From a virus: a DNA stretch of 20,636 bases. Shown piece by piece: positions 584 to 17,970 of this stretch. Within the stretch, counting starts at the first letter, position 1. Each line of letters begins with the position of its first letter. The notes under the pieces were generated by a model. The model saw only the letters and a program-made list of their open reading frames with translations. It had not been told where the DNA came from and did not search any database. Made by a program: the position numbers and the translations under genes. The DNA lies in IMG/VR virus record IMGVR_UViG_3300033144_005863, positions 1-20,636 of that record; one strand, given 5' to 3'.

Positions 584-2956
584 ATGAGCGCACCTATTTT
601 TGCAGAGGGCATCATCAAGCGGGAGCGCTTCCGTCGAACTCGGATGGACAAGGACGAGCGCCAAGAGATCATCGAGCGGGTACTCAAGTTTGCCACGGAC
701 GACATTGACGCCCGCGTCGAAGACAAAGACCGACGCCTGCAGCGCTACGCGAAGTACCGGCAGTGGACTGAAAATAGAGATGGCCCCTGGGAGGGCTCGT
801 CTGACATCGCGCTTTCCGACATCACTGAGGCGGTGCTCAACCTGGAGGACACGCTCACCAACGCGATTCTCTCGAATCGACCGGTGGTTACTTCGAATGC
901 GCTGAAGAAAGAGCACAACGACCGGCAGTCGAAGATCGATCAGGTACTCGACAGCCAGTTCTTTGTTGAGCAGGAAGGCGAGAAGACCATCGAGGAGCTG
1001 GCTGAACTGTTCCTGGTAGATGGCGTCTTCACCGCCTACATCCCGTGGATACGAGAGAACCGCCCCGTCACCGACCTCCGCATCTTCGATGCCGTCCCGA
1101 ACGAGGCTTCCCCGATGCAGCATTTTCAGCAACTCGTCGAGCAGGAGTTCCCTGGCGAGATGGTCTTCCCGGCGGGCGAGAAGGATGGCTGGGACTTCCG
1201 CGTAGAACTCAAAGACACCATGCTGCCGGATCCGCAGATCAGTTTCTATACCCGGAAGGAAGACAAGAAAACCGAGATGCTGATTAAAAAGCATACGGAG
1301 GTCTTCAACGGGCCTCGGGTGCTGGTGAAAGACTACGACGATGTGCTCACGCCGCCGCGGGTGGCAAACCTCCAGCCCCCCAGCCCGAAGAATCCAGGTG
1401 GGTCGCCTCACGTCATCATCGTCGACCAACCCACGGTGGGAGAGATCGAAGCGCTGAAGCGGGAGGGTTTTTACGACCTCGCGAACTCCGATCCCGAGGA
1501 AGACGAACTCGGGTTGCGCTCGCGTGACGACAGCCGGGAAGAGTCGAAGAAGCAAAAAGACGAAATGGCGGGTACGAGTGAGAGTGGTTACACGACCGAG
1601 GATACGCAGCACAAGACGCTGACCCGGTACATCTGCTACGACGTTTACGATCTCGATGGGGATGGGATCGCGGAAGACGTGATCTTCTGGGTGCTGCTGG
1701 AGGACAAGATTCTCCTGAAGGCGATGCCACTCACGGAACTCTTCCCCTCCGACCCGCCCCGACGCCCGTTTGCGGAGGCGTCGTTCCTCCCTGTGAAGGG
1801 CCGTCGAGAAGGGATCAGCCTGCCGGAGTTGATGGAGGGCTGGCACGATTTTCTGAAGGAGACGATCGATACAGGGATGGACGGGGGCACGCTGGCGAAC
1901 ACGCCCTACTTCTTCTACCGCGCTTCGAGCACCTTGAAGCCCGAAATCATCCGGCCCTGGCCTGGAGATGGCATCCCGCTCTCCGACCCCCAGCGCGACG
2001 TTCACTTCCCATCGATCCCGTTTGACGGCTCGTTTGCCCTGAATGCGGTGGCGATGGGGCGGCAATTTGAAGAGCGGCTCACGCTCGAGGGCGACCTCCA
2101 GTCGGGCCGGGTGCCGCAGGGGAAGTCCTCGGCGTTGCGGACGGTGGGGGGCATCAACACGATTCTCGCGCAGGGTGAGGCGCGACCGGAGCGCATCCTG
2201 CGCCGCTTCTTTATGGGCTTCGGCGAGATCTACAAACAGATGCACGAACTCAATCAGCACCTGTTCCCGGAGGAGAAGCAGATCAGGGTGCTGGGTATTG
2301 TGGAGCCCGGTGAGAATCCTTACCCGATAATTGTTCGCAAGAGTGACCTCGCAGGTGGCCGGTTCGTGTTCGACTTCCGTGCGAGCGTCCTGAACTCGAG
2401 TAAGCAGGCGCAGCAGCAGGGGCTCAACCAGATGCTCACGATGCTCATCAACCCGCTGATGATTCAGCTGGGAATCGTCGGGCCGGAAGAAATTTTCCGT
2501 ATGGTGCGCGACGCGGCGAAGACGGCGGGTGTCAATCCCGATCGCTACCTGAAGGAACCGACACCGGGTGCGGGTCGACCGAGGATTACCGCGAATCAGG
2601 CTATCTCGGTGATTCTCGATCACGCGCTACCCGATGGCGTTCCCGCAGAACCCAGTGCGCAGGACCATCTTGACCAGCTGCAGGCCTTCATGCAAGACAA
2701 GGAAAGCCAGTTTGGTCTGCTCGATCAGTCGCAACTCGGCATCTTCCGAACGTGGCTGATGCAGATCATGCAGCTTGCGGTGCAGGAGCAGGGCCAGGAG
2801 CAGATTGCGCAGCTCACCGAAGGATTCCAGCAGCAGTTCGGCGCGCAGGGAGGTGGTGGCAACGGTGCCGCGACGCCTGTAGATCAGGGGCAGCCGCCAG
2901 TGAATCAAAATGAACTGCTCGATGAGTCCCTGCCCGGCAATGGGAGGCCTGCCTGA
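584..2956 (+). CDS. Portal protein
   Basis: This 790-residue protein is the likely dodecameric portal through which DNA is packaged and ejected. Near residues 69-100 it carries the pattern WEGSSDIALSD followed by a helix ending in SNRPVV, which resembles the opening of P22-type portals. A long mixed alpha/beta body follows. A charged low-complexity loop lies near residues 300-345, and the Gln- and Gly-rich tail after about residue 690 resembles a barrel or coiled-coil extension. The length is near that of the large podovirus portals (P22 gp1 is about 725 residues). The ATG at 584 has TAGGAG upstream at good spacing. It is first in the head operon, and its stop overlaps the next start by one base. 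Size, position before the scaffold and capsid genes, and motif support the call; I could not run a profile search. Confidence 0.78.
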   Translation: MSAPIFAEGIIKRERFRRTRMDKDERQEIIERVLKFATDDIDARVEDKDRRLQRYAKYRQWTENRDGPWEGSSDIALSDITEAVLNLEDTLTNAILSNRPVVTSNALKKEHNDRQSKIDQVLDSQFFVEQEGEKTIEELAELFLVDGVFTAYIPWIRENRPVTDLRIFDAVPNEASPMQHFQQLVEQEFPGEMVFPAGEKDGWDFRVELKDTMLPDPQISFYTRKEDKKTEMLIKKHTEVFNGPRVLVKDYDDVLTPPRVANLQPPSPKNPGGSPHVIIVDQPTVGEIEALKREGFYDLANSDPEEDELGLRSRDDSREESKKQKDEMAGTSESGYTTEDTQHKTLTRYICYDVYDLDGDGIAEDVIFWVLLEDKILLKAMPLTELFPSDPPRRPFAEASFLPVKGRREGISLPELMEGWHDFLKETIDTGMDGGTLANTPYFFYRASSTLKPEIIRPWPGDGIPLSDPQRDVHFPSIPFDGSFALNAVAMGRQFEERLTLEGDLQSGRVPQGKSSALRTVGGINTILAQGEARPERILRRFFMGFGEIYKQMHELNQHLFPEEKQIRVLGIVEPGENPYPIIVRKSDLAGGRFVFDFRASVLNSSKQAQQQGLNQMLTMLINPLMIQLGIVGPEEIFRMVRDAAKTAGVNPDRYLKEPTPGAGRPRITANQAISVILDHALPDGVPAEPSAQDHLDQLQAFMQDKESQFGLLDQSQLGIFRTWLMQIMQLAVQEQGQEQIAQLTEGFQQQFGAQGGGGNGAATPVDQGQPPVNQNELLDESLPGNGRPA

Positions 2957-3348
2957 TGGCACAACCTGATCGGGACGAAGACTGGAAACCACGGGTCGAA
3001 GCGCTTTCACAGAAAAATGTCAGAAAACAGGCATCGGATCTGCGTGCGCTACAGCGTGCGGCACTCTCTTCGACCCAGATTACAGGTGACGAGCACTGGG
3101 ATCTGATGCTCTCTGTGGTGCAACATCGGATTGAAGATCTGGAAGGAAAGCTCGAAGTTGCACTCAACCGGCAAAGAAATTCAGATGATTTTACGGAAAG
3201 CGTATTGATCAACGACAAGCTCGCGGTGCGCTTGATCGGTCATGAAATCGAAGCGCTCCAGTGGGTGAGTGGGCTACCTCAAATTCTTTTGGAGAATGGT
3301 GATCGCGCAAAGGAACTACTCGGAACCATTGACGAATCCTCTGATTGA
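2956..3348 (+). CDS. Hypothetical head-operon protein (130 aa)
   Basis: I do not recognise the family. The 130 residues are highly charged and predicted to be helical. A coiled-coil-like stretch runs from about residue 48 (DLMLSVVQHRIEDLEGKLEV). The second half (residues 80-110) is more hydrophobic and ends in an acidic tail. There is no signal peptide or membrane segment. Its ATG shares one base with the portal stop, so translation is probably coupled, and its end overlaps the Com-like gene. A small protein in this position could be a head-completion factor or an accessory to the portal or packaging machinery, but that is position-based inference only. Confidence 0.7.
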   Translation: MAQPDRDEDWKPRVEALSQKNVRKQASDLRALQRAALSSTQITGDEHWDLMLSVVQHRIEDLEGKLEVALNRQRNSDDFTESVLINDKLAVRLIGHEIEALQWVSGLPQILLENGDRAKELLGTIDESSD

Positions 3349-3511
3349 AGTTCGCTGCCCTGCTTGTGGTAGGTACCTGATGAAGTGGGTCCCGAACGTG
3401 CAGACATGGATTGAGATCAAGTGTCGCCGCTGCAAAGCGTTTGTGGAACTGCGTCACGGATCGATTGCGTTTGTAGAAAGAAAGGTTGACAGGCTTGTAG
3501 CGGCTGTGTAA
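3296..3511 (+). CDS. Com-like zinc-ribbon protein
   Basis: The protein contains CPAC, an 18-residue spacer ending WIEIK, then CRRC. This matches the Mu Com family, whose short proteins read roughly IRCxxC...IEIRCPRC. In phage Mu, Com binds the mom mRNA and switches on its translation, so an RNA-binding regulatory role is a reasonable guess. With the start used here the cysteines are residues 21, 24, 43 and 46 of 71. The start is uncertain. GTG at 3269 lacks a clear ribosome site, ATG at 3296 has GGAG almost touching it, and TTG at 3329 would give the short N-terminus typical of Com. It overlaps the end of the previous gene and is followed by a terminator. No mom-like gene is visible in this window. 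Confidence 0.68.
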   Translation: MVIAQRNYSEPLTNPLIEVRCPACGRYLMKWVPNVQTWIEIKCRRCKAFVELRHGSIAFVERKVDRLVAAV

Positions 3512-3563
3512 CGGTTTATAGGGAAACGTGTAAAGGCTTTTCGTTTGCGCCATTGAGCGCTCG

Positions 3564-3595
3564 AAGCCCGCCACTTGGCGGGCTTTTTGTTTTTT
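3564..3595 (+). terminator. Rho-independent terminator before the scaffold gene
   Basis: AAGCCCGCC (3564-3572), loop ACTT, GGCGGGCTT (3577-3585), then a run of T interrupted by one G to 3595. This is a textbook intrinsic terminator. It lies 10 bases before the scaffold ATG, inside a 94-base gap (3512-3605), and overlaps the approach to the ribosome site GAGGT. It should reduce read-through from the portal side or act as an attenuator or processing site. The rest of the gap holds an 8-bp palindrome GAGCGCTC (3555-3562). Confidence 0.82.
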
Positions 3596-3605
3596 GAGGT
3601 AGTGC

Positions 3606-4385
3606 ATGCTCGTAATACCTACCCCCGAAGAAGCCGCTGCGGCAGAAGCTGCTGATGCAGCAGCCGCGGCAGAGGCAGAAGCAGGTACCGAGGTTGGTAG
3701 CGAAGAGGTCGCAGAGGCAGAAGCCGCTGCGGCTGTAGACGACACCCAGGCACAACTCACCGTAGAGCGCGAGCAGCGCATCCGGTTGGAAGAGCGGCTC
3801 GCGGCCTCGCAGGCAGCGCCTCCCGAGGCTGCGCCAGCACCTCCCGTTGTACTTACTCGTGCTCAACTGCGTGCCGCGGTGGATGCAGGCACGATCGATG
3901 AAGACGGTATGGAGCAAGTCTGGGCGGATCAGAATCGCGCGCAGACGCGTCGGGAAATAGGTGAGGACCAGGATAGGCGTGACGCTGAGCGAACCTCGTC
4001 AAATTTCATCGAGAGCGAAACCGCGCAGTACCTCTCAGGTCGCCCTGACATTCGAACTCAGGGCAGCTCTGACTGGACCAAGCTCAAAACCGAGTACGAC
4101 TACCTGATTCGGACGGGTTCCAAGGACAGCAAGGAGACGGAACTCAACGCCATGCGCGCCGCGTTTGGTCCTGCCGAGCGGATCGCAGAACACACCTCAA
4201 CGCTCCGGCAGACGACGGGTGAGACGTCTACTTCCTCGAGTGGCAGTGGTGGTGGCGACAAATCCAGCGACATTCTGATGAAGGTTCCGAAAAGCATCCG
4301 AGCGCACTATCGGCAGATGGTGGATGACGGCCTGAAGACGCTCGATGAAGTGAAGCGGGAACTCCCCTACATGAGGCAGCAGTAG
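3606..4385 (+). CDS. Scaffolding protein (probable)
   Basis: This 259-residue protein has the classic scaffold build. The first 50 residues are almost pure Ala, Glu and acidic residues, then comes a coiled-coil-like QLTVEREQRIRLEERLA segment. A Pro/Ala linker, a charged helical middle, a Ser/Gly/Thr linker near residue 205, and a helical, more basic C-terminus (residues 222-259) follow. In known scaffolds such a C-terminal helical segment binds the capsid protein. The protein would guide procapsid assembly and then leave or be degraded. It lies just upstream of the capsid genes, has a GAGGT ribosome site, and its stop overlaps the next start by one base. No catalytic protease motif is visible. 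Composition and position carry the call. Confidence 0.7.
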   Translation: MLVIPTPEEAAAAEAADAAAAAEAEAGTEVGSEEVAEAEAAAAVDDTQAQLTVEREQRIRLEERLAASQAAPPEAAPAPPVVLTRAQLRAAVDAGTIDEDGMEQVWADQNRAQTRREIGEDQDRRDAERTSSNFIESETAQYLSGRPDIRTQGSSDWTKLKTEYDYLIRTGSKDSKETELNAMRAAFGPAERIAEHTSTLRQTTGETSTSSSGSGGGDKSSDILMKVPKSIRAHYRQMVDDGLKTLDEVKRELPYMRQQ

Positions 4386-4711
4386 TGGCGGCTCCCCAGA
4401 TTTATATCCCCGGCCAAGCTGAAGTGCCGCGTTTTCCGCGCGAGCATCCTGGCCGGAAGTCCCGGACGACGGCAGCGGGCTGGGTGCTCGACTACCTCGT
4501 GCCGAGGAATCAAACTGTTTTGCTCTGCCAGGGCTGCAACCACGGCTTCGATGGCCGGAAGGTGAACTACGTCTCGCTCGTTCAGCGGTTCGGGTACACG
4601 CGAGGGACGTGCGACGGGTGCAAGAAGATTTGGCAGAACTGCTTCATGTGGGTATCAGAATCTCTACTCGGGACGAAATCTGGTCAGTGCTGGGATCCTG
4701 GGTTGCTTTAA
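4385..4711 (+). CDS. Zinc-ribbon hypothetical protein between scaffold and capsid genes
   Basis: This small 108-residue protein starts with GTG at 4385, one base into the scaffold stop. It contains two CxxC knuckles, CQGC at residues 48-51 and CDGC at 76-79, the pattern of a four-cysteine zinc ribbon. Extra cysteines occur at 86 and 101. The N-terminal 30 residues are Pro-, Arg- and Gly-rich and probably flexible; there are no membrane segments. I cannot assign a family. Its place in the operon suggests an assembly or nucleic-acid-binding accessory, but it could equally be a regulator like the Com-like protein upstream. Confidence 0.68.
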   Translation: MAAPQIYIPGQAEVPRFPREHPGRKSRTTAAGWVLDYLVPRNQTVLLCQGCNHGFDGRKVNYVSLVQRFGYTRGTCDGCKKIWQNCFMWVSESLLGTKSGQCWDPGLL

Positions 4712-4723
4712 GGGGGGTACGAA

Positions 4724-5452
4724 ATGGAAGCGATGGGAACAATCGGTGGCGGCGCAATCGTTGTGAAGAAGTATCAGGCGGGAACGACCATCTCGACTGC
4801 GGGGATCCCGCTTATTGGTTCGCTTACGTCGGCTACAGATTACGCTTCTGTGGAACCGATGACGACCTCTACGGCGCTCGTGAATGGCAACGTGGGCATC
4901 GGTCTCGACACGACCGGGACCATTACGCAAACGACGACGGCTGACAGCAACGACCTCCTGATCAGTGTCGCTGTGAATCCTGATCTGATCATTCGTTGCA
5001 AGATGAACAACGGGGCGACCGAAGACACGGCGCTGACGCTCTACCCGACCTCTGCGGCGGATGCCACAGGCGTGACGACAACGGGTACAACCTCGCTCGA
5101 TCAGGGTGTTCAGTGGGGATACGATGGTGCGAACAAGGGCCATTATCGTCGGATGAATGATGCTGCGGGCAGTACGGCGATCAACTTCGCGAATGCTGTT
5201 GCGCAAGGGGATAATTTCCTCTTCGCGAATGGGTACCCGGCTTGCTTGGTGGCGGCATCGTTGTCCAACGGCCCGAATTTGACTACCGCGTTGACGCAGG
5301 GTGACGCCTCGACGGCGTGCCCTGGTGACAACGACACGTTCATCGTGTTCGACATGCAGCTCGGAACCGAGGATGATGACGGAGCGAACAACAGTTTCTG
5401 GCACTTCGTCGCGAATCAGCACGTCTTTGGCTCCACGATGAATACTGCGTAG
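4724..5452 (+). CDS. Probable minor head or decoration protein (242 aa)
   Basis: The 242 residues are rich in Thr, Ser, Ala, Gly and Asn, with alternating short hydrophobic stretches typical of all-beta virion proteins. The second half contains WGYDGANKGHYRRM and ends with an aromatic segment (DTFIVFDMQLG, NNSFWHFVAN). No enzyme motif or signal peptide is visible. A strong AGGGGGG ribosome site lies 6 bases before the ATG, which suggests high expression. It sits immediately before the major capsid gene, where decoration or minor capsid proteins are often encoded. The family is not recognised. The 66-base gap after it (5453-5518) contains only the capsid gene's ribosome site and no obvious terminator. 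Confidence 0.65.
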   Translation: MEAMGTIGGGAIVVKKYQAGTTISTAGIPLIGSLTSATDYASVEPMTTSTALVNGNVGIGLDTTGTITQTTTADSNDLLISVAVNPDLIIRCKMNNGATEDTALTLYPTSAADATGVTTTGTTSLDQGVQWGYDGANKGHYRRMNDAAGSTAINFANAVAQGDNFLFANGYPACLVAASLSNGPNLTTALTQGDASTACPGDNDTFIVFDMQLGTEDDDGANNSFWHFVANQHVFGSTMNTA

Positions 5453-5518: not shown

Positions 5519-6439
5519 ATGGCCGTTCCGCACACAAGTACCAATTTTGGGGATGTTCTGGATCCGACCTTTTCTCGGATTTTCGATGAGGAGTACGACC
5601 AGCTCCCTGACATGGTTCCGGGGTTGTATACGATCGTGCCCACCGGGCCGAGAAGCGACTCCACGAAGTGGAGTTCCGTGGGAACGCTCCCGGATCTGAC
5701 CCAGTTCACGGGAACCATCGGCTACCAGAGCCAGAGCCAGGGGTACGACACTACGGCGACGCATCTGGAGTGGGCCAGTGGTACCCAGGTAGAGCGGAAG
5801 CTCTTCGACGACGGTCAGCACCAGATCATGAACCAGAAGCCTGCGGCGTTGGCGATGGCGTCCAACAGGACGCGCCAGAAGCATGCGGTGCAGCCCTTCT
5901 CTGGGGCGTTCTCGTCTGGCAACTCGTTCTACGTGAACTCGGAGGGCGTGGCGATGTGCAGTGACTCGCACACGACCACTTCGGGGGCCTCGACGTCGAC
6001 TGGCTTCGATAACCTCAGCACTGCATCGCTCACCGCAGCGGCAGTCTCTGCCTTGCGGACGCAGATGCGGGGGTTCCGAGACGATCAGGCGGGGCGCATT
6101 TCGGTGATGCCGGATGAGTTGCTCGTACCGCCCGATCTCGAGGACAAGGCGCTCGAGATCATCGGGTCGGACAAGGACCCGGAGTCCGCGAACAACGCCA
6201 TCAACCCGCAGCGGTCGCGTTTCAGTCTCACTGACTGGAACTACCTCCCGGACACCAACAATTGGTGGATCATGGACAGCGGCCTGCGACGCAAGAGCCT
6301 CTTCTGGATCGATCGGGTCACGAAGGAGTTCGGGCGTGCCGAGGACTTCGACACGTTCATCGCGAAGTTCCGTGTTTACCAGCGGTACAGCTTCGCCTGG
6401 GTCGACTGGCGCTTCGTTGCAGGGGCGCAGGTTTCGTAG
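5519..6439 (+). CDS. Major capsid protein (HK97 fold)
   Basis: This 306-residue protein would form the capsid shell. The N-terminus (FGDVLDPTFSRIFDEEYDQL) resembles the N-arm and E-loop start of scaffold-dependent capsid proteins. The stretch near residues 195-235 (VMPDELLVPPDLEDKALEII, then NNAINP) is a hallmark of the A-domain in Mu gpT-like and related HK97-fold proteins. The C-terminus (YSFAWVDWRFVAGA) is the usual final beta strand. There is no fused protease domain, consistent with a separate scaffold upstream. AAGGGGGG six bases before the ATG is one of the strongest ribosome sites in the window, fitting an abundant protein. Of all the calls here this is among the safest. Confidence 0.88.
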   Translation: MAVPHTSTNFGDVLDPTFSRIFDEEYDQLPDMVPGLYTIVPTGPRSDSTKWSSVGTLPDLTQFTGTIGYQSQSQGYDTTATHLEWASGTQVERKLFDDGQHQIMNQKPAALAMASNRTRQKHAVQPFSGAFSSGNSFYVNSEGVAMCSDSHTTTSGASTSTGFDNLSTASLTAAAVSALRTQMRGFRDDQAGRISVMPDELLVPPDLEDKALEIIGSDKDPESANNAINPQRSRFSLTDWNYLPDTNNWWIMDSGLRRKSLFWIDRVTKEFGRAEDFDTFIAKFRVYQRYSFAWVDWRFVAGAQVS

Positions 6440-14536: not shown

Positions 14537-15402
14537 TGGGTTCAGTGCGACCGAAGCTTCTCGACACGATGGGCGATCTGGCGTACCGGCTTCGGAACGC
14601 CACCGAGACACGTCTGCCTCGGAACTACTTCGCTGGTCTCCAGACGACGATTGAGGACACAGACGATGTGAATATCGCTGCTGGGGAATGCCGCGACTCG
14701 TCCAACTCGGTCAATATCGTCCTTACCGGAGATCTTGCCAAGAAGATCGACACCACCTGGGCTGTGGGTAACGATCAAGGTGGGCTCAACGCTACGAACT
14801 TCGCGGCTGACGGTGACGGCACCTTGCCCAACATAACCTACCACCTCTTCTTGATCAAGCACGGGGATGGCACTGTGGATGCTGGGTTCGACAAGTCGAC
14901 AACGGCAACGAACCTGCTTTCAGACACGGGGTATACGTGGTACAGGCGAGTGGGGAGCTACCCGACGGATGCAACGGCAGGACCCAACGCTAATATGTAC
15001 GACTTTTTCCAGGTGGGAAACCAGTTCATGTACCGGACGATCCCTGCTGACAGTGCCTTTACTTCCGAGGCGGAAGACACCGCGAGGACAGTCACCCTCC
15101 TTGGCGCACCAACTGGGTTCAAGTTTCTGCTCAACATCAATGCTGAGATCGATGACGACAACGAGGGGTTCCTTTACATCTCCTCGTTGGATCAAGTAAA
15201 CCAGAACGCAGGTGAAGCTGGCGAGCCTCTGGCACAAGTACACTGCGTTGCGAGTGAAACAGGGATGGCGCAAGTTCTTGTTCGCTCTAACGTCAGCGGT
15301 CAATTCCGGGTGACTGCGGTCGGACAGGGTGTTGGAGGAGATGTCAACGCTATCCGTTTCTGCTTGCAGGGCTGGTTTGACGACCTGGGACAATACGACT
15401 GA
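14536..15402 (+). CDS. Tail appendage or fibre-like protein (288 aa)
   Basis: The 288-residue protein starts with a short helix (LLDTMGDLAYRLRN). A motif common in phage fibre proteins follows: NYFAGLQ, then VNIAAGECRDSSNSVNIVL, WAVGNDQGG, YHLFLIKHGDGTVDAGFD and WYRRVGSYPTDA. This domain is recurrent in tail fibre and receptor-binding proteins. A second beta half follows (residues about 180-285, FLYISSLDQ, QVLVRSNVSGQFRVTA). The TAATG junction with the previous gene shares one base, and the GNAT-like gene begins one base into its stop. Host-receptor binding is a guess. Confidence 0.6.
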   Translation: MGSVRPKLLDTMGDLAYRLRNATETRLPRNYFAGLQTTIEDTDDVNIAAGECRDSSNSVNIVLTGDLAKKIDTTWAVGNDQGGLNATNFAADGDGTLPNITYHLFLIKHGDGTVDAGFDKSTTATNLLSDTGYTWYRRVGSYPTDATAGPNANMYDFFQVGNQFMYRTIPADSAFTSEAEDTARTVTLLGAPTGFKFLLNINAEIDDDNEGFLYISSLDQVNQNAGEAGEPLAQVHCVASETGMAQVLVRSNVSGQFRVTAVGQGVGGDVNAIRFCLQGWFDDLGQYD

Positions 15403-15818
15403 TGTCGCGACCTGACGTAAAGACACGACTGGCGCAGGACAGCGAGAAGGAGATCGTTGCTTCCCTAGTGTCTGAAATCTTCCAGATGGGGGACTGGGAA
15501 CTCCCGTTCGAAAGCGTCTTCCCGTACTGGCTGGTGGCGGAGATCGCAGGAGAGATTGTGGGCACCATCAACATGCGCCTGTCGATGCCTATCTCCAGTG
15601 TGGAGATGCTCGCGATTGATTCCAGGTTGGGGCCGCGCGAGCGTGGCTCGGTAGCGTCGATATTGACAGACTCCGCAATGGCAATCTGTGCAGCGCACGG
15701 TGCAGAAGCTGTCTCTTCGATGATCCCCGACAGCATGGAGTCCTATTTGAAGGTCGCCCAGCGCCGTGGATACGTGGTGGGGAACCACGGTAGTATCATC
15801 TTTGGGAGAACGCGATGA
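15402..15818 (+). CDS. GNAT-like acetyltransferase
   Basis: The 138 residues fit a shortened GNAT fold. A helical N-terminus is followed by the strand PYWLVAEIAGEIVGTINMR (about residues 40-58), a typical beta-2/beta-3 hairpin. The segment VEMLAIDSRLGPRERGSVAS (67-86) takes the place of the strand and pyrophosphate-binding turn that normally holds acetyl-CoA. The turn R-x-x-G-S is degenerate relative to the Q/RxxGxG/A motif. Small GNAT proteins occur in tail regions of many phages. Its substrate is unknown. It is embedded between fibre-like and S74-chaperone genes, so modification of a virion protein is possible. Overlaps at both ends show it belongs to the operon. Confidence 0.62.
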   Translation: MSRPDVKTRLAQDSEKEIVASLVSEIFQMGDWELPFESVFPYWLVAEIAGEIVGTINMRLSMPISSVEMLAIDSRLGPRERGSVASILTDSAMAICAAHGAEAVSSMIPDSMESYLKVAQRRGYVVGNHGSIIFGRTR

Positions 15819-16942
15819 CGGGTTCATCATCGGAAAGTGGCGTTAAGGTAGTCAAGTTTGACGACGAGTTTCGTCGAATCCAGGAGATTTCCACCGCGAT
15901 TCTGGGTGAGGCCTTCGGGGCTACACTCGACCAGCGGCAGTTTCAGTCGGCACTCTTCTCCCTGCTCGAGCCTGAATTCGATCGGATCGTTAAGGAAGGG
16001 AACTTCGCTGACCAGCTCGGGACGACCGAGGCGCGGCAGAGTTTTCTACGCAACACGATCGATCGGAACACCAAGCTCAGCGAGCAGGCCTCAGAACTGT
16101 CTGCCCGCCTGACCGAATCGGTAGGGAATCTCGGCACGCTCACAGACTCCGACCATGAGCTGATCTCCTCGGCCATCACCAACGCGCGCACGGTGGGCAT
16201 GAAACAGATCGATGATTTCGTGTCCGGGAACTTCCTCTCTACCAACGAGGTTGCGGCGGCGCGTGGTCTCTCTCCGACCGATGCCCCTGTGGGTAACATC
16301 CGAGGCCGCATCGCGGAAGAGGCCATCTCCCAGAAGGGCCTGCTCGAGAGCCAGCTCGCCACGCAGCAGGCGGAGCTGTCACTGAACCTGCCTATGCAAC
16401 GCACCGCGCTGGAGGCGCAGATTTTTGGTCAAGTTGGTGGGCTCTCGCAATCAGCGGACGCTTTCCAGGCAGCACTGGCGCAGAACGCCGAGGCCAACCG
16501 GCTGAACCTCGTAAGCACCACGGCGCAGTCAGGGCTGGGGCTCACCGGTCTGGCGAACACGGCACCGGGGACGCTGGCGGGATCGCGGCCTGCATTTGGG
16601 AGTACGTCTTCCGCGGCATCGGGTGGTATCTCGACCCGAATGCTCAAGACCAGCGAGCGCGAGGTCAATTCCGCCGAGGTTCTCGCACGGCTGCAGACGT
16701 TGCCGATCAAGGCCTGGGAATATCTGTGGGACAAGGGCGAGGATGCGTTCCAGGTGGGGCCGTATGCAGAAGACTTCCAGGAGGCGTTTGGTGGCGACTC
16801 CTACCGGATCAGCTTCATTCACGCACTAGGTGTCTCGATGGTGGCCCTCCAGGAGCTTGCAGGACGCATGGATCGGCTCGAGAAGGACCTCCAGGATAGG
16901 GGGCTCCTCGAAAGTTCAGTACAAGAGAGGCCTGCAGCATGA
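15815..16942 (+). CDS. Helical virion protein with C-terminal S74-type chaperone domain
   Basis: The first 240 of 375 residues are mostly helical, with coiled-coil-like segments (NTKLSEQASELSARLTE, GLLESQLATQQAELSL). The C-terminal 100 residues resemble the Peptidase S74 intramolecular chaperone found on tail fibres and endosialidases. They contain ISTRMLK, with Ser273 and Lys278 spaced S-x4-K like the autocleavage dyad, then LPIKAWEYLW, VGPYAEDFQEAFG, and a coiled-coil ending LAGRMDRLEKDL. In the family this domain trimerises the fibre and then cuts itself off. Here the consensus SD is ST, so cleavage needs testing. Attachment to a helical rather than fibre-like body is unusual. Start ATG at 15815 overlaps the previous stop (ATGA). 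Confidence 0.68.
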   Translation: MTGSSSESGVKVVKFDDEFRRIQEISTAILGEAFGATLDQRQFQSALFSLLEPEFDRIVKEGNFADQLGTTEARQSFLRNTIDRNTKLSEQASELSARLTESVGNLGTLTDSDHELISSAITNARTVGMKQIDDFVSGNFLSTNEVAAARGLSPTDAPVGNIRGRIAEEAISQKGLLESQLATQQAELSLNLPMQRTALEAQIFGQVGGLSQSADAFQAALAQNAEANRLNLVSTTAQSGLGLTGLANTAPGTLAGSRPAFGSTSSAASGGISTRMLKTSEREVNSAEVLARLQTLPIKAWEYLWDKGEDAFQVGPYAEDFQEAFGGDSYRISFIHALGVSMVALQELAGRMDRLEKDLQDRGLLESSVQERPAA

Positions 16943-17970
16943 TGATTGGAGTCGACGAGGCGCTGCAAGTAGTTGATGTTCTTCGGGATTTCCAGTATTG
17001 CTGGTTCTGGTTCGCTGGCGTCGGCAGTGGTGCTGCTGCTGGCGGTGCTGCTGCTGGCGGTGCTGCTGCTGGCGGTGCTGCTGCTGGCGGTGCTGCTGCT
17101 GCTGGCGGTGCTGCCGCGGGTGGCGCTGGTGCTGCCGCGGGTGGCGCTGGTGCTGCCGCGGGTGGCGCTGGTGCTGCCGCTGCTGCGACTCCTGCCGCCG
17201 CCGCTCCAGCTGCGGGTGGGGCTGGGGCTGGGGCAGGGGCGGCGGGTGGGGCTGGGGCTGGGGGTGGTGGCGCACCCGGAGCGGCTCCGACACCTCCGTC
17301 CATGACCCCGCCACCTCCTGCACCGACAGCAGCAGCGCCGCCGCCAGGAGTATCGAGCGAGGTGAGTTCTGGAGCCGCGGGTGGTGGCGCAGACCTCGGA
17401 ATGCAGAGTGGTGGCACCGTTTCTACCCAGACTCCGACTCCGCCAGCAGTGATAGAGTTGCTCAAGCCAGAGGCGGGAGGTCCCGCGCAGGTGTCGACCC
17501 AACCCACTGTGGATTTCGGAGCCAATGTTTCCACGCCTTCGGGGCCTGCCAACATCAGGCCACCTTCTTTCCCTGGGAAGAACACCGCGGCGGAATTTGC
17601 GGAGCGCTTCCCGGCAGATAAGCCGGGATTGCTAGATCGACTGAACGAGGGTCTCTCGAAGGTCGGTGACCTTTTGGGCACGGAAGAAAAGAAGGGTGAC
17701 TCCGAAGGTCTCAAGCTTTTGAAGAACATCCGGCGGCTGGGGGCGAAAAATCCGCCAAAAGAAGCTGATAGCCCTCCGGCAGGTCGGCGCTCGGGAGAGC
17801 AGGGTGTCGCTTCTCTAGGTGCAGCTACGCCCCGGTCTTTTACCCAGGCAGAGACGACAGGGTTTGGTGGTGGAGCAAGCCTGGGGCTCGCTGACTTTGA
17901 ACAGGATCGACAGCGAGGCCTTACGCAGCTGGCCGCAGACTTGCGGCTGAGTGGGAGACGTTTTGGCTAA
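16939..17970 (+). CDS. Gly/Ala/Pro-rich low-complexity virion protein
   Basis: A 343-residue protein of very biased composition. After a short start (MMIGVDEALQVVDVLRDF) residues 31-130 are nearly all Gly and Ala in repeated GAAAG units, followed by a Pro-rich linker. The second half has a charged region (about 230-300, DRLNEGLSKVGDLLG, LKLLKNIRRL) and a C-terminal helical tail. The repeats lie in tandem DNA units of 15 and 21 bases, so length can change without breaking the frame. The long Gly/Ala tract is probably flexible. It lies between the S74-domain protein and the ejection-type protein. The first 30 residues have no clear family. Start ATGA overlaps the previous stop. Confidence 0.6.
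   Translation: MMIGVDEALQVVDVLRDFQYCWFWFAGVGSGAAAGGAAAGGAAAGGAAAGGAAAAGGAAAGGAGAAAGGAGAAAGGAGAAAAATPAAAAPAAGGAGAGAGAAGGAGAGGGGAPGAAPTPPSMTPPPPAPTAAAPPPGVSSEVSSGAAGGGADLGMQSGGTVSTQTPTPPAVIELLKPEAGGPAQVSTQPTVDFGANVSTPSGPANIRPPSFPGKNTAAEFAERFPADKPGLLDRLNEGLSKVGDLLGTEEKKGDSEGLKLLKNIRRLGAKNPPKEADSPPAGRRSGEQGVASLGAATPRSFTQAETTGFGGGASLGLADFEQDRQRGLTQLAADLRLSGRRFG
17029..17169 (+). repeat. In-frame tandem repeat tract (15- and 21-bp units)
   Basis: Four copies of the 15-bp unit GGTGCTGCTGCTGGC occupy 17029-17088. An 18-bp variant with one extra GCT (17089-17106) and three copies of a 21-bp unit (17107-17169, GGTGCTGCCGCGGGTGGCGCT begins each) follow. All are multiples of three, so expansions keep the reading frame. 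The tract is open in several frames on both strands, which is a composition artefact. Confidence 0.9.

Follow-up and report, generated by a model that had tools for sequence, protein, structure and literature searches.

Between the portal and capsid genes of a virus fragment lies a short gene for a zinc-ribbon protein resembling Com of phage Mu, and the locus raises the question of what such a protein would do upstream of head genes. To our knowledge, nearly all work on Com concerns its role in switching on mom. We analyzed the whole 20.6-kb stretch of DNA (the window), a linear virus record that represents a fragment and carries its structural module on the plus strand (Table 1). Computation shows the parts of the leader between the Com-like and scaffold-like genes, their conservation, the homology that links the protein with Com, and the repeated pairing of hairpin and terminator in other phages. 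The reading that we favor, with a probability of roughly 0.6, is that this leader attenuates transcription of the head genes under the control of a protein, and that the Com-type protein would act there as an antiterminator.

Table 1 Features of the structural module and of the leader in the window
Feature	Position	Strand	Evidence or remark
Portal protein gene, SU10-type portal	584-2956	+	Pfam PF23899, E = 2e-34; phrog_1216 (portal)
Conserved 130-aa protein, "ITGDEHWD," between portal and Com-like genes	2956-3348	+	Homologs in related contigs
Com-like zinc-ribbon protein, 70 aa	3299-3511	+	GTG 3299 start, ATG 3296 possible; family comparisons
TTGACA, -35-like, in last codons of Com-like gene; candidate leader promoter	3486-3491	+	TTGAC kept in relatives
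P1, Com-operator-like hairpin GCGC/CATTGA/GCGC, contains CC-ATT-GAG	3547-3560	+	Fits CC(N)2-3GAG
P2, intrinsic terminator hairpin, 10-bp stem	3563-3586	+	dG = -18.8 kcal/mol; kept in relatives
Terminator U-tract TTTTTGTTTTTT	3584-3595	+	Sequence
GAGG, ribosome-binding site of scaffold-like gene	3596-3599	+	Sequence
Scaffold-like gene, acidic, Ala/Glu-rich; presumed target	3606-4385	+	Position, relatives
Cys-rich protein gene	4385-4711	+	Between scaffold-like and decoration-like genes
Decoration-like gene	4724-5452	+	
Major capsid protein gene, Mu gpT-like	5519-6439	+	Pfam PF10124, E = 4e-11; phrog_371, E = 3e-14

Genes of the window

The gene directly downstream of the Com-like gene was scaffold-like, not mom. 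Its product matched no family in Pfam and PHROG searches and is presumably a scaffold, given its position (portal, this gene, decoration, capsid) and its acidic composition. The original prediction had noted no mom in the window, and this was confirmed: Mu Mom had no match in the 20.6-kb record (Mu control, 1e-168), and neither a mom nor a methylase partner was present in this fragment of the phage. A GNAT-like ORF (15402-15818) matched no Mom family; it is followed by a gene (15815-16942) whose product has an endosialidase-chaperone-like (S74) C-terminal part, with a match just below the cut-off (E = 4e-4). The product of 16939-17970 was of very low complexity and Ala/Gly-rich, with AAAGG repeats and no family match. 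The protein encoded at 4385-4711 is a second Cys-rich protein of the window (LCxxCxHxF...CDGCK...C); it matched no family and is kept in most relatives, also in those that lack a Com-like gene. An 80-aa ORF on the minus strand (225-467), just before the portal gene, may be real because a similarly placed minus-strand ORF was found in a related contig (L005). No relatives of the portal were found in bacterial genomes.

Homology of the Com-like protein

The Com-like gene more likely starts at GTG 3299 than at ATG 3296 because its relatives align from the GTG. Read from there to its stop codon (3509-3511), it shares 50 nt with the gene for the 130-aa protein upstream, which suggests translational coupling. 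Its product contains CPAC...CRRC, a short zinc-ribbon pattern of two CxxC pairs, and the four zinc-binding cysteines were invariant in six aligned relatives. The predicted Com-like zinc ribbon upstream of a hairpin and a scaffold gene was thus found in place (Table 1).

The proposed profile search for Com gave a divided answer. Against Pfam Com (PF10122), the protein scored 19.3 bits (E = 8e-4), below the curated cut-off of 22.9 bits, which none of its relatives passed; it matched phrog_6417 ("translational regulator," E = 7e-9) and phrog_13819 ("gpCom," E = 2e-4). When the window family was aligned by hhalign with seven genuine Com proteins (Mu, B3, Phipami28, Chuche, JD024, ST2-1pr, and Mcat3, the last two assigned to Com by target gene and sequence), the probability was 96.7% (E = 4.5e-10). 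The match was better with a set consisting mostly of Com-like proteins encoded before head genes of other phages (98.3%, E = 1.9e-14). Judged by these comparisons, homology of the window protein to genuine Com is clear. No close relatives of the protein were found in phage records, and its Pfam scan returned only zinc ribbons and other weak hits, with no ANTAR or LicT domain. The predicted structure was all-beta and was set aside because its confidence was low (pLDDT 65) and a PDB search with it gave no significant match.

Terminator, candidate promoter, and operator-like hairpin

The terminator hairpin P2, 51 nt past the Com-like stop codon, has the form GAAGCCCGCC-ACTT-GGCGGGCTTT, followed by TTGTTTTTT, and ranked best of 24 terminator-like sites in the first 20 kb of the window. 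The T-tract ends exactly 10 nt before the scaffold ATG, as had been predicted for a strong hairpin at this place, and the stem ends 19 nt before it. The GAGG of the scaffold-like gene directly follows the terminator, with no space for a promoter between the terminator and the gene. Among relatives, the P2 stem varied in length and sequence, with pairing kept by compensatory changes, and the U-tract was present in nearly all of them. Rfam gave no match in the window.

The pentamer TTGAC was present toward the 3′ end of the Com-like gene in all 11 family members (0.49 expected) and was kept in L004 despite a change of codon context from V to L. An E. coli-type promoter at TTGACA was considered and rejected: the -35 element is conserved, but no -10 element was recognizable for it in the window. 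One other leader (L124) has TTGACA-16-TATAAT after the com stop codon.

Com recognizes the SELEX-defined motif CC(N)2-3GAG in a hairpin loop, e.g., GAAUGCCUGCGAGCAUCCC in the mom leader (Nowacka et al., PMC6483171). P1 was nearly identical to the com-dam hairpin of phage B3 (GCGC/CATCGA/GCGC), which is itself one base pair apart from the corresponding hairpin of a close relative of the window (L003). In an operator model built on other operons, P1 scored 9.0 bits and ranked 10 of 22, with E = 4 over the window, so that P1, taken by itself, lacks genome-wide significance. Two nucleotides separate P1 from P2, and the two do not overlap.

Conservation among relatives of the window

The zinc-ribbon gene, the terminator, and the gene order were common to eight contigs with portal identities of 70-88%, and the same layout was found in three more distant contigs (L036, L040, and L029; portal identity 42-50%). 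The order portal, 130-aa protein, Com-like protein, hairpin(s), scaffold was kept in L002, L003, L004, L005, L007, L009, and L010. Joint retention of the Com-like gene, the terminator, and the gene order exceeds chance. A C-N3-GA loop at P1 was found in half of the close family (window, L002, L003, and L005); the loop is a different one in L004, L007, L009, and L010, and only the stem is left in L036 and L040. There was no covariation in P1 within the close family, where the stem is nearly invariant and uninformative. The operator model matched inside the leaders of L010 (12.7 bits), L002 (9.9 bits), and L005 (9.8 bits).

Distant relatives without a Com-like gene were heterogeneous: L015 has no terminator, L014 keeps it, and in L017 the terminator is followed by a TTGACA-17-TATCTT promoter. 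Upstream of the scaffold-like gene, L014, L022, and L024 of this group have GGCGTAACCG...GGCCGCC-type repeats, possibly another leader element.

Com operators in modification operons and head-type leaders

We collected 109 distinct Com-like loci. Of 53 com-modification loci (mom or methylase), 37 had a 4-bp hairpin closing C-N2-3-GA close to the start of the target (0.7 expected from shuffling), giving the operator consensus GAnnnC/C-N2-3-GA/GnnnY. The perfect pairing in this alignment was built in by selection and was left out as evidence. The operators of these 53 operons provide the first broad consensus of Com targets known to us. For Com-target pairs from phage records, the motif was near the target start in all eight, 24-30 nt upstream of it in seven and at the annotated mom start in Mu. 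Many com-methylase operons (e.g., L102, L145, L175, and L176) have two operator hairpins approximately 22 nt apart, the first usually with C-N2-GA, an arrangement that recalls ANTAR targets with their paired hairpins.

Loci were called head-type if the Com-like gene lies ahead of genes that encode, with PHROG support, portal, scaffold, protease, or capsid proteins. In the automatic scan, an intrinsic terminator between the Com-like gene and its target was found in 16 of 26 head-type loci vs. 1 of 58 modification loci (Fisher test, P = 1.2e-9), the former count being biased upward because the head class was partly recognized by its terminators. By a single criterion, a hairpin with a C-N2-5-GA loop was present in 16 of 25 head-type leaders (2.1 expected with shuffled upstream sequence); one match (L029) was discarded as chance, leaving 15 of 24. 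The same type of hairpin accompanied 8 of 199 control terminators (approximately 4%), and at least three of these eight were duplicate copies of the test leaders. A covariance model was trained on modification operons alone and then applied to both strands of 14 head-type loci (89 kb); of its six top matches, five fell exactly in head leaders (L237, L248, L045, L117, and L190).

In nine leaders (L237, L248, L045, L190, L041, L096, L043, L199, and L234), the hairpin overlaps the 5′ arm of the terminator by 5-8 nt, so that hairpin and terminator cannot form together. These hairpins include GTGC/CAAGA/GCGC (L237), ACTC/CAAGA/GAGT (L248), ATGC/CTACTGA/GCAT, close to Mu's own site (L045), GAC/CAAAGA/GTC (LoVEphage, L096), and GCTT/C-NN-GA/AAGC (L043, L199, and L234). 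In a later scan, only two new loci had a terminator, one next to a capsid gene (L322) and one next to a portal gene (L339), and in both a hairpin of the C-N2-5-GA type overlapped it; none of the modification loci of that scan had a terminator. The arrangement of Com-like gene, Com-type hairpin, predicted terminator, and head genes thus recurs in unrelated phages; cultured phages with such a layout are the Bacteroides LoVEphage and BI-TP1. The window is likely a member of this class, as indicated by homology, position, and conservation and not by the motif alone; evidence for a Com switch is weaker in the window itself than in the other phages.

Com-like genes were also seen directly upstream of tail tape-measure genes (L243, 2690-5104; L246, 2673-5123). 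In L243, a run of T comes after a CACCATAGAG site, which may be this switch applied to a tail gene. In WOR-1/Saganbacteria (L132, L136, L137, L140, and L144), a Com-like zinc-ribbon ORF extends approximately 30 nt into the start of an apparent aspartyl-tRNA synthetase gene, recognized by eye.

Proposed mechanism and alternatives

Antitermination is the natural reading because operator and terminator overlap in other phages. We infer binding of RNA, an effect in the direction of antitermination, and a promoter at TTGACA. The zinc ribbon would be made from the upstream packaging/portal transcript and would bind the C-NNN-GA loop of P1 in the nascent leader RNA, and the bound protein would prevent the adjoining terminator P2 from stopping RNA polymerase. 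The scaffold, decoration, and capsid genes would then be transcribed only after the protein has accumulated, a feed-forward logic in which a product of the upstream transcript opens the head operon. In the other phages, the bound protein would keep the 5′ arm out of the terminator; in the window, where P1 stands 2 nt before P2, it could exclude the terminator only sterically.

Alternatively, the Com-like protein could activate translation as in Mu, binding P1 and opening a structure that hides the scaffold Shine-Dalgarno sequence, with the terminator-like hairpin as a spacer or inhibitor. Such activation is the established action of Com on mom, P1 is close upstream of the start codon, and the L002 leader in its minimum-energy fold has P1 paired with the Shine-Dalgarno sequence. 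When P1 was forced, however, this sequence was clearly exposed in L010 only (from 0.29 to 0.68 unpaired) and was essentially unchanged in the window (from 0.38 to 0.40), as it was in most relatives; relief of sequestration by P1 was therefore unsupported in the window. The U-tract after the stem in nearly all relatives is what a terminator needs, and the com-modification operons, thought to be translationally controlled, are without terminators. Antitermination fits better because P2 is a true intrinsic terminator and forced P1 does not free the Shine-Dalgarno sequence in the window, and we regard translational activation as unlikely. It is quite unlikely that an ordinary terminator merely stands beside an unrelated small zinc protein, trimming or ending upstream transcripts while expression of the capsid genes relies on read-through and the Com-site match is due to chance. 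CC-N3-GAG by itself is indeed common (60 in the window vs. 63 expected), and both the rank of P1 and the half of the relatives that lack the loop agree with chance, but the Com homology and the recurring C-N2-5-GA hairpins at terminators after Com-like genes would be left unexplained.

A system similar to that of lambda Q, in which the zinc protein would load on RNA polymerase at the TTGACA promoter and make it terminator-resistant without binding an RNA hairpin, has the same layout (Q, pR′, terminator, late genes) and agrees with the invariance of TTGAC and with the promoter of L124; AlpA and Q act from promoter-embedded sites. We consider it very improbable, given that the protein belongs with an RNA-binding family, that a kept hairpin and its overlap with the terminator are not needed for such loading, and that no convincing -10 element is present in the window; as the leading reading, it was demoted after the Com-site hairpin was recognized. 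Least probable of all is a phage small RNA of approximately 70 nt, from TTGACA to the terminator and with two hairpins, acting in trans or as a sponge for the Com-like protein. Candidate -35 element, leader, and strong terminator are laid out like a small-RNA gene, but Rfam gave no match, the Shine-Dalgarno sequence and start codon follow at once, and the distance from promoter to terminator varies in other phages.

With antitermination as the preferred reading, the predicted action of a Com-type protein on the scaffold/capsid leader is supported in part. Com homology, a motif-fitting hairpin, and recurrence speak for it; the missed Pfam cut-off and the loop in four of eight members speak against it, and the mode of action would be antitermination rather than translation. 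More generally, we lean slightly toward the view that Com-family zinc ribbons are widespread phage RNA-binding antiterminators that gate the head operon by setting the Com hairpin against a terminator, control of mom and methylases being a branch without the terminator in which translation is regulated. If so, many unannotated zinc proteins of 60-80 aa by portal, scaffold, and capsid genes would gain a function. The leaders would form a new class of RNA attenuators with the rule of a C-N2-5-GA loop on the 5′ arm of the terminator, and a testable mechanism would be at hand for when many uncultured phages make their capsids.

Comparison with known systems

In the open-access literature, no precedent was found for Com linked to head genes or terminators. 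The predicted new use of the family therefore holds for control of head genes by antitermination, but a use beyond mom was already suspected: in Pseudomonas, Com-like genes precede llpA bacteriocin, tailocin-cargo, and lysis genes, and their general role was called unexplored (PMC6240691). These genes share with the window the presence of the Com family outside DNA modification and differ in that their targets are not head genes.

A close parallel is Mu Com/mom, in which a short CxxC...CxxC zinc protein is likewise encoded directly before its target and the operator hairpin likewise has CC(N)2-3GAG. The window differs in having the head operon as its presumed target, an intrinsic terminator after the hairpin, and a protein that scores below the Pfam cut-off; Mu com overlaps mom, whereas the Com-like ORF of the window ends before the hairpin. 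Com-like regulators of DNA methyltransferases (B3, Chuche, Phipami28, UMP151, and ST2-1pr) share the hairpin, which is almost identical in B3, but they lack the terminator, often have the paired hairpins described, and in most cases com overlaps the target start, unlike in the window.

In the ANTAR proteins (EutV, NasR) and in BglG, SacY, and LicT, a small protein-bound RNA hairpin competes with a terminator. The mode proposed here would be the same, with overlap in the nine leaders of other phages and the 2-nt gap in the window, whereas the proteins are unrelated, the loop signature is another one, and their targets are signal-responsive host genes. Antiterminator and terminator hairpins are mutually exclusive in antiterminators in general (PMC3369936). 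Lambda Q and AlpA share with the window the succession of regulator gene, promoter, short leader, terminator, and late genes; they differ in loading from DNA sites embedded in promoters, whereas the Com-like protein would act from a hairpin in the leader RNA.
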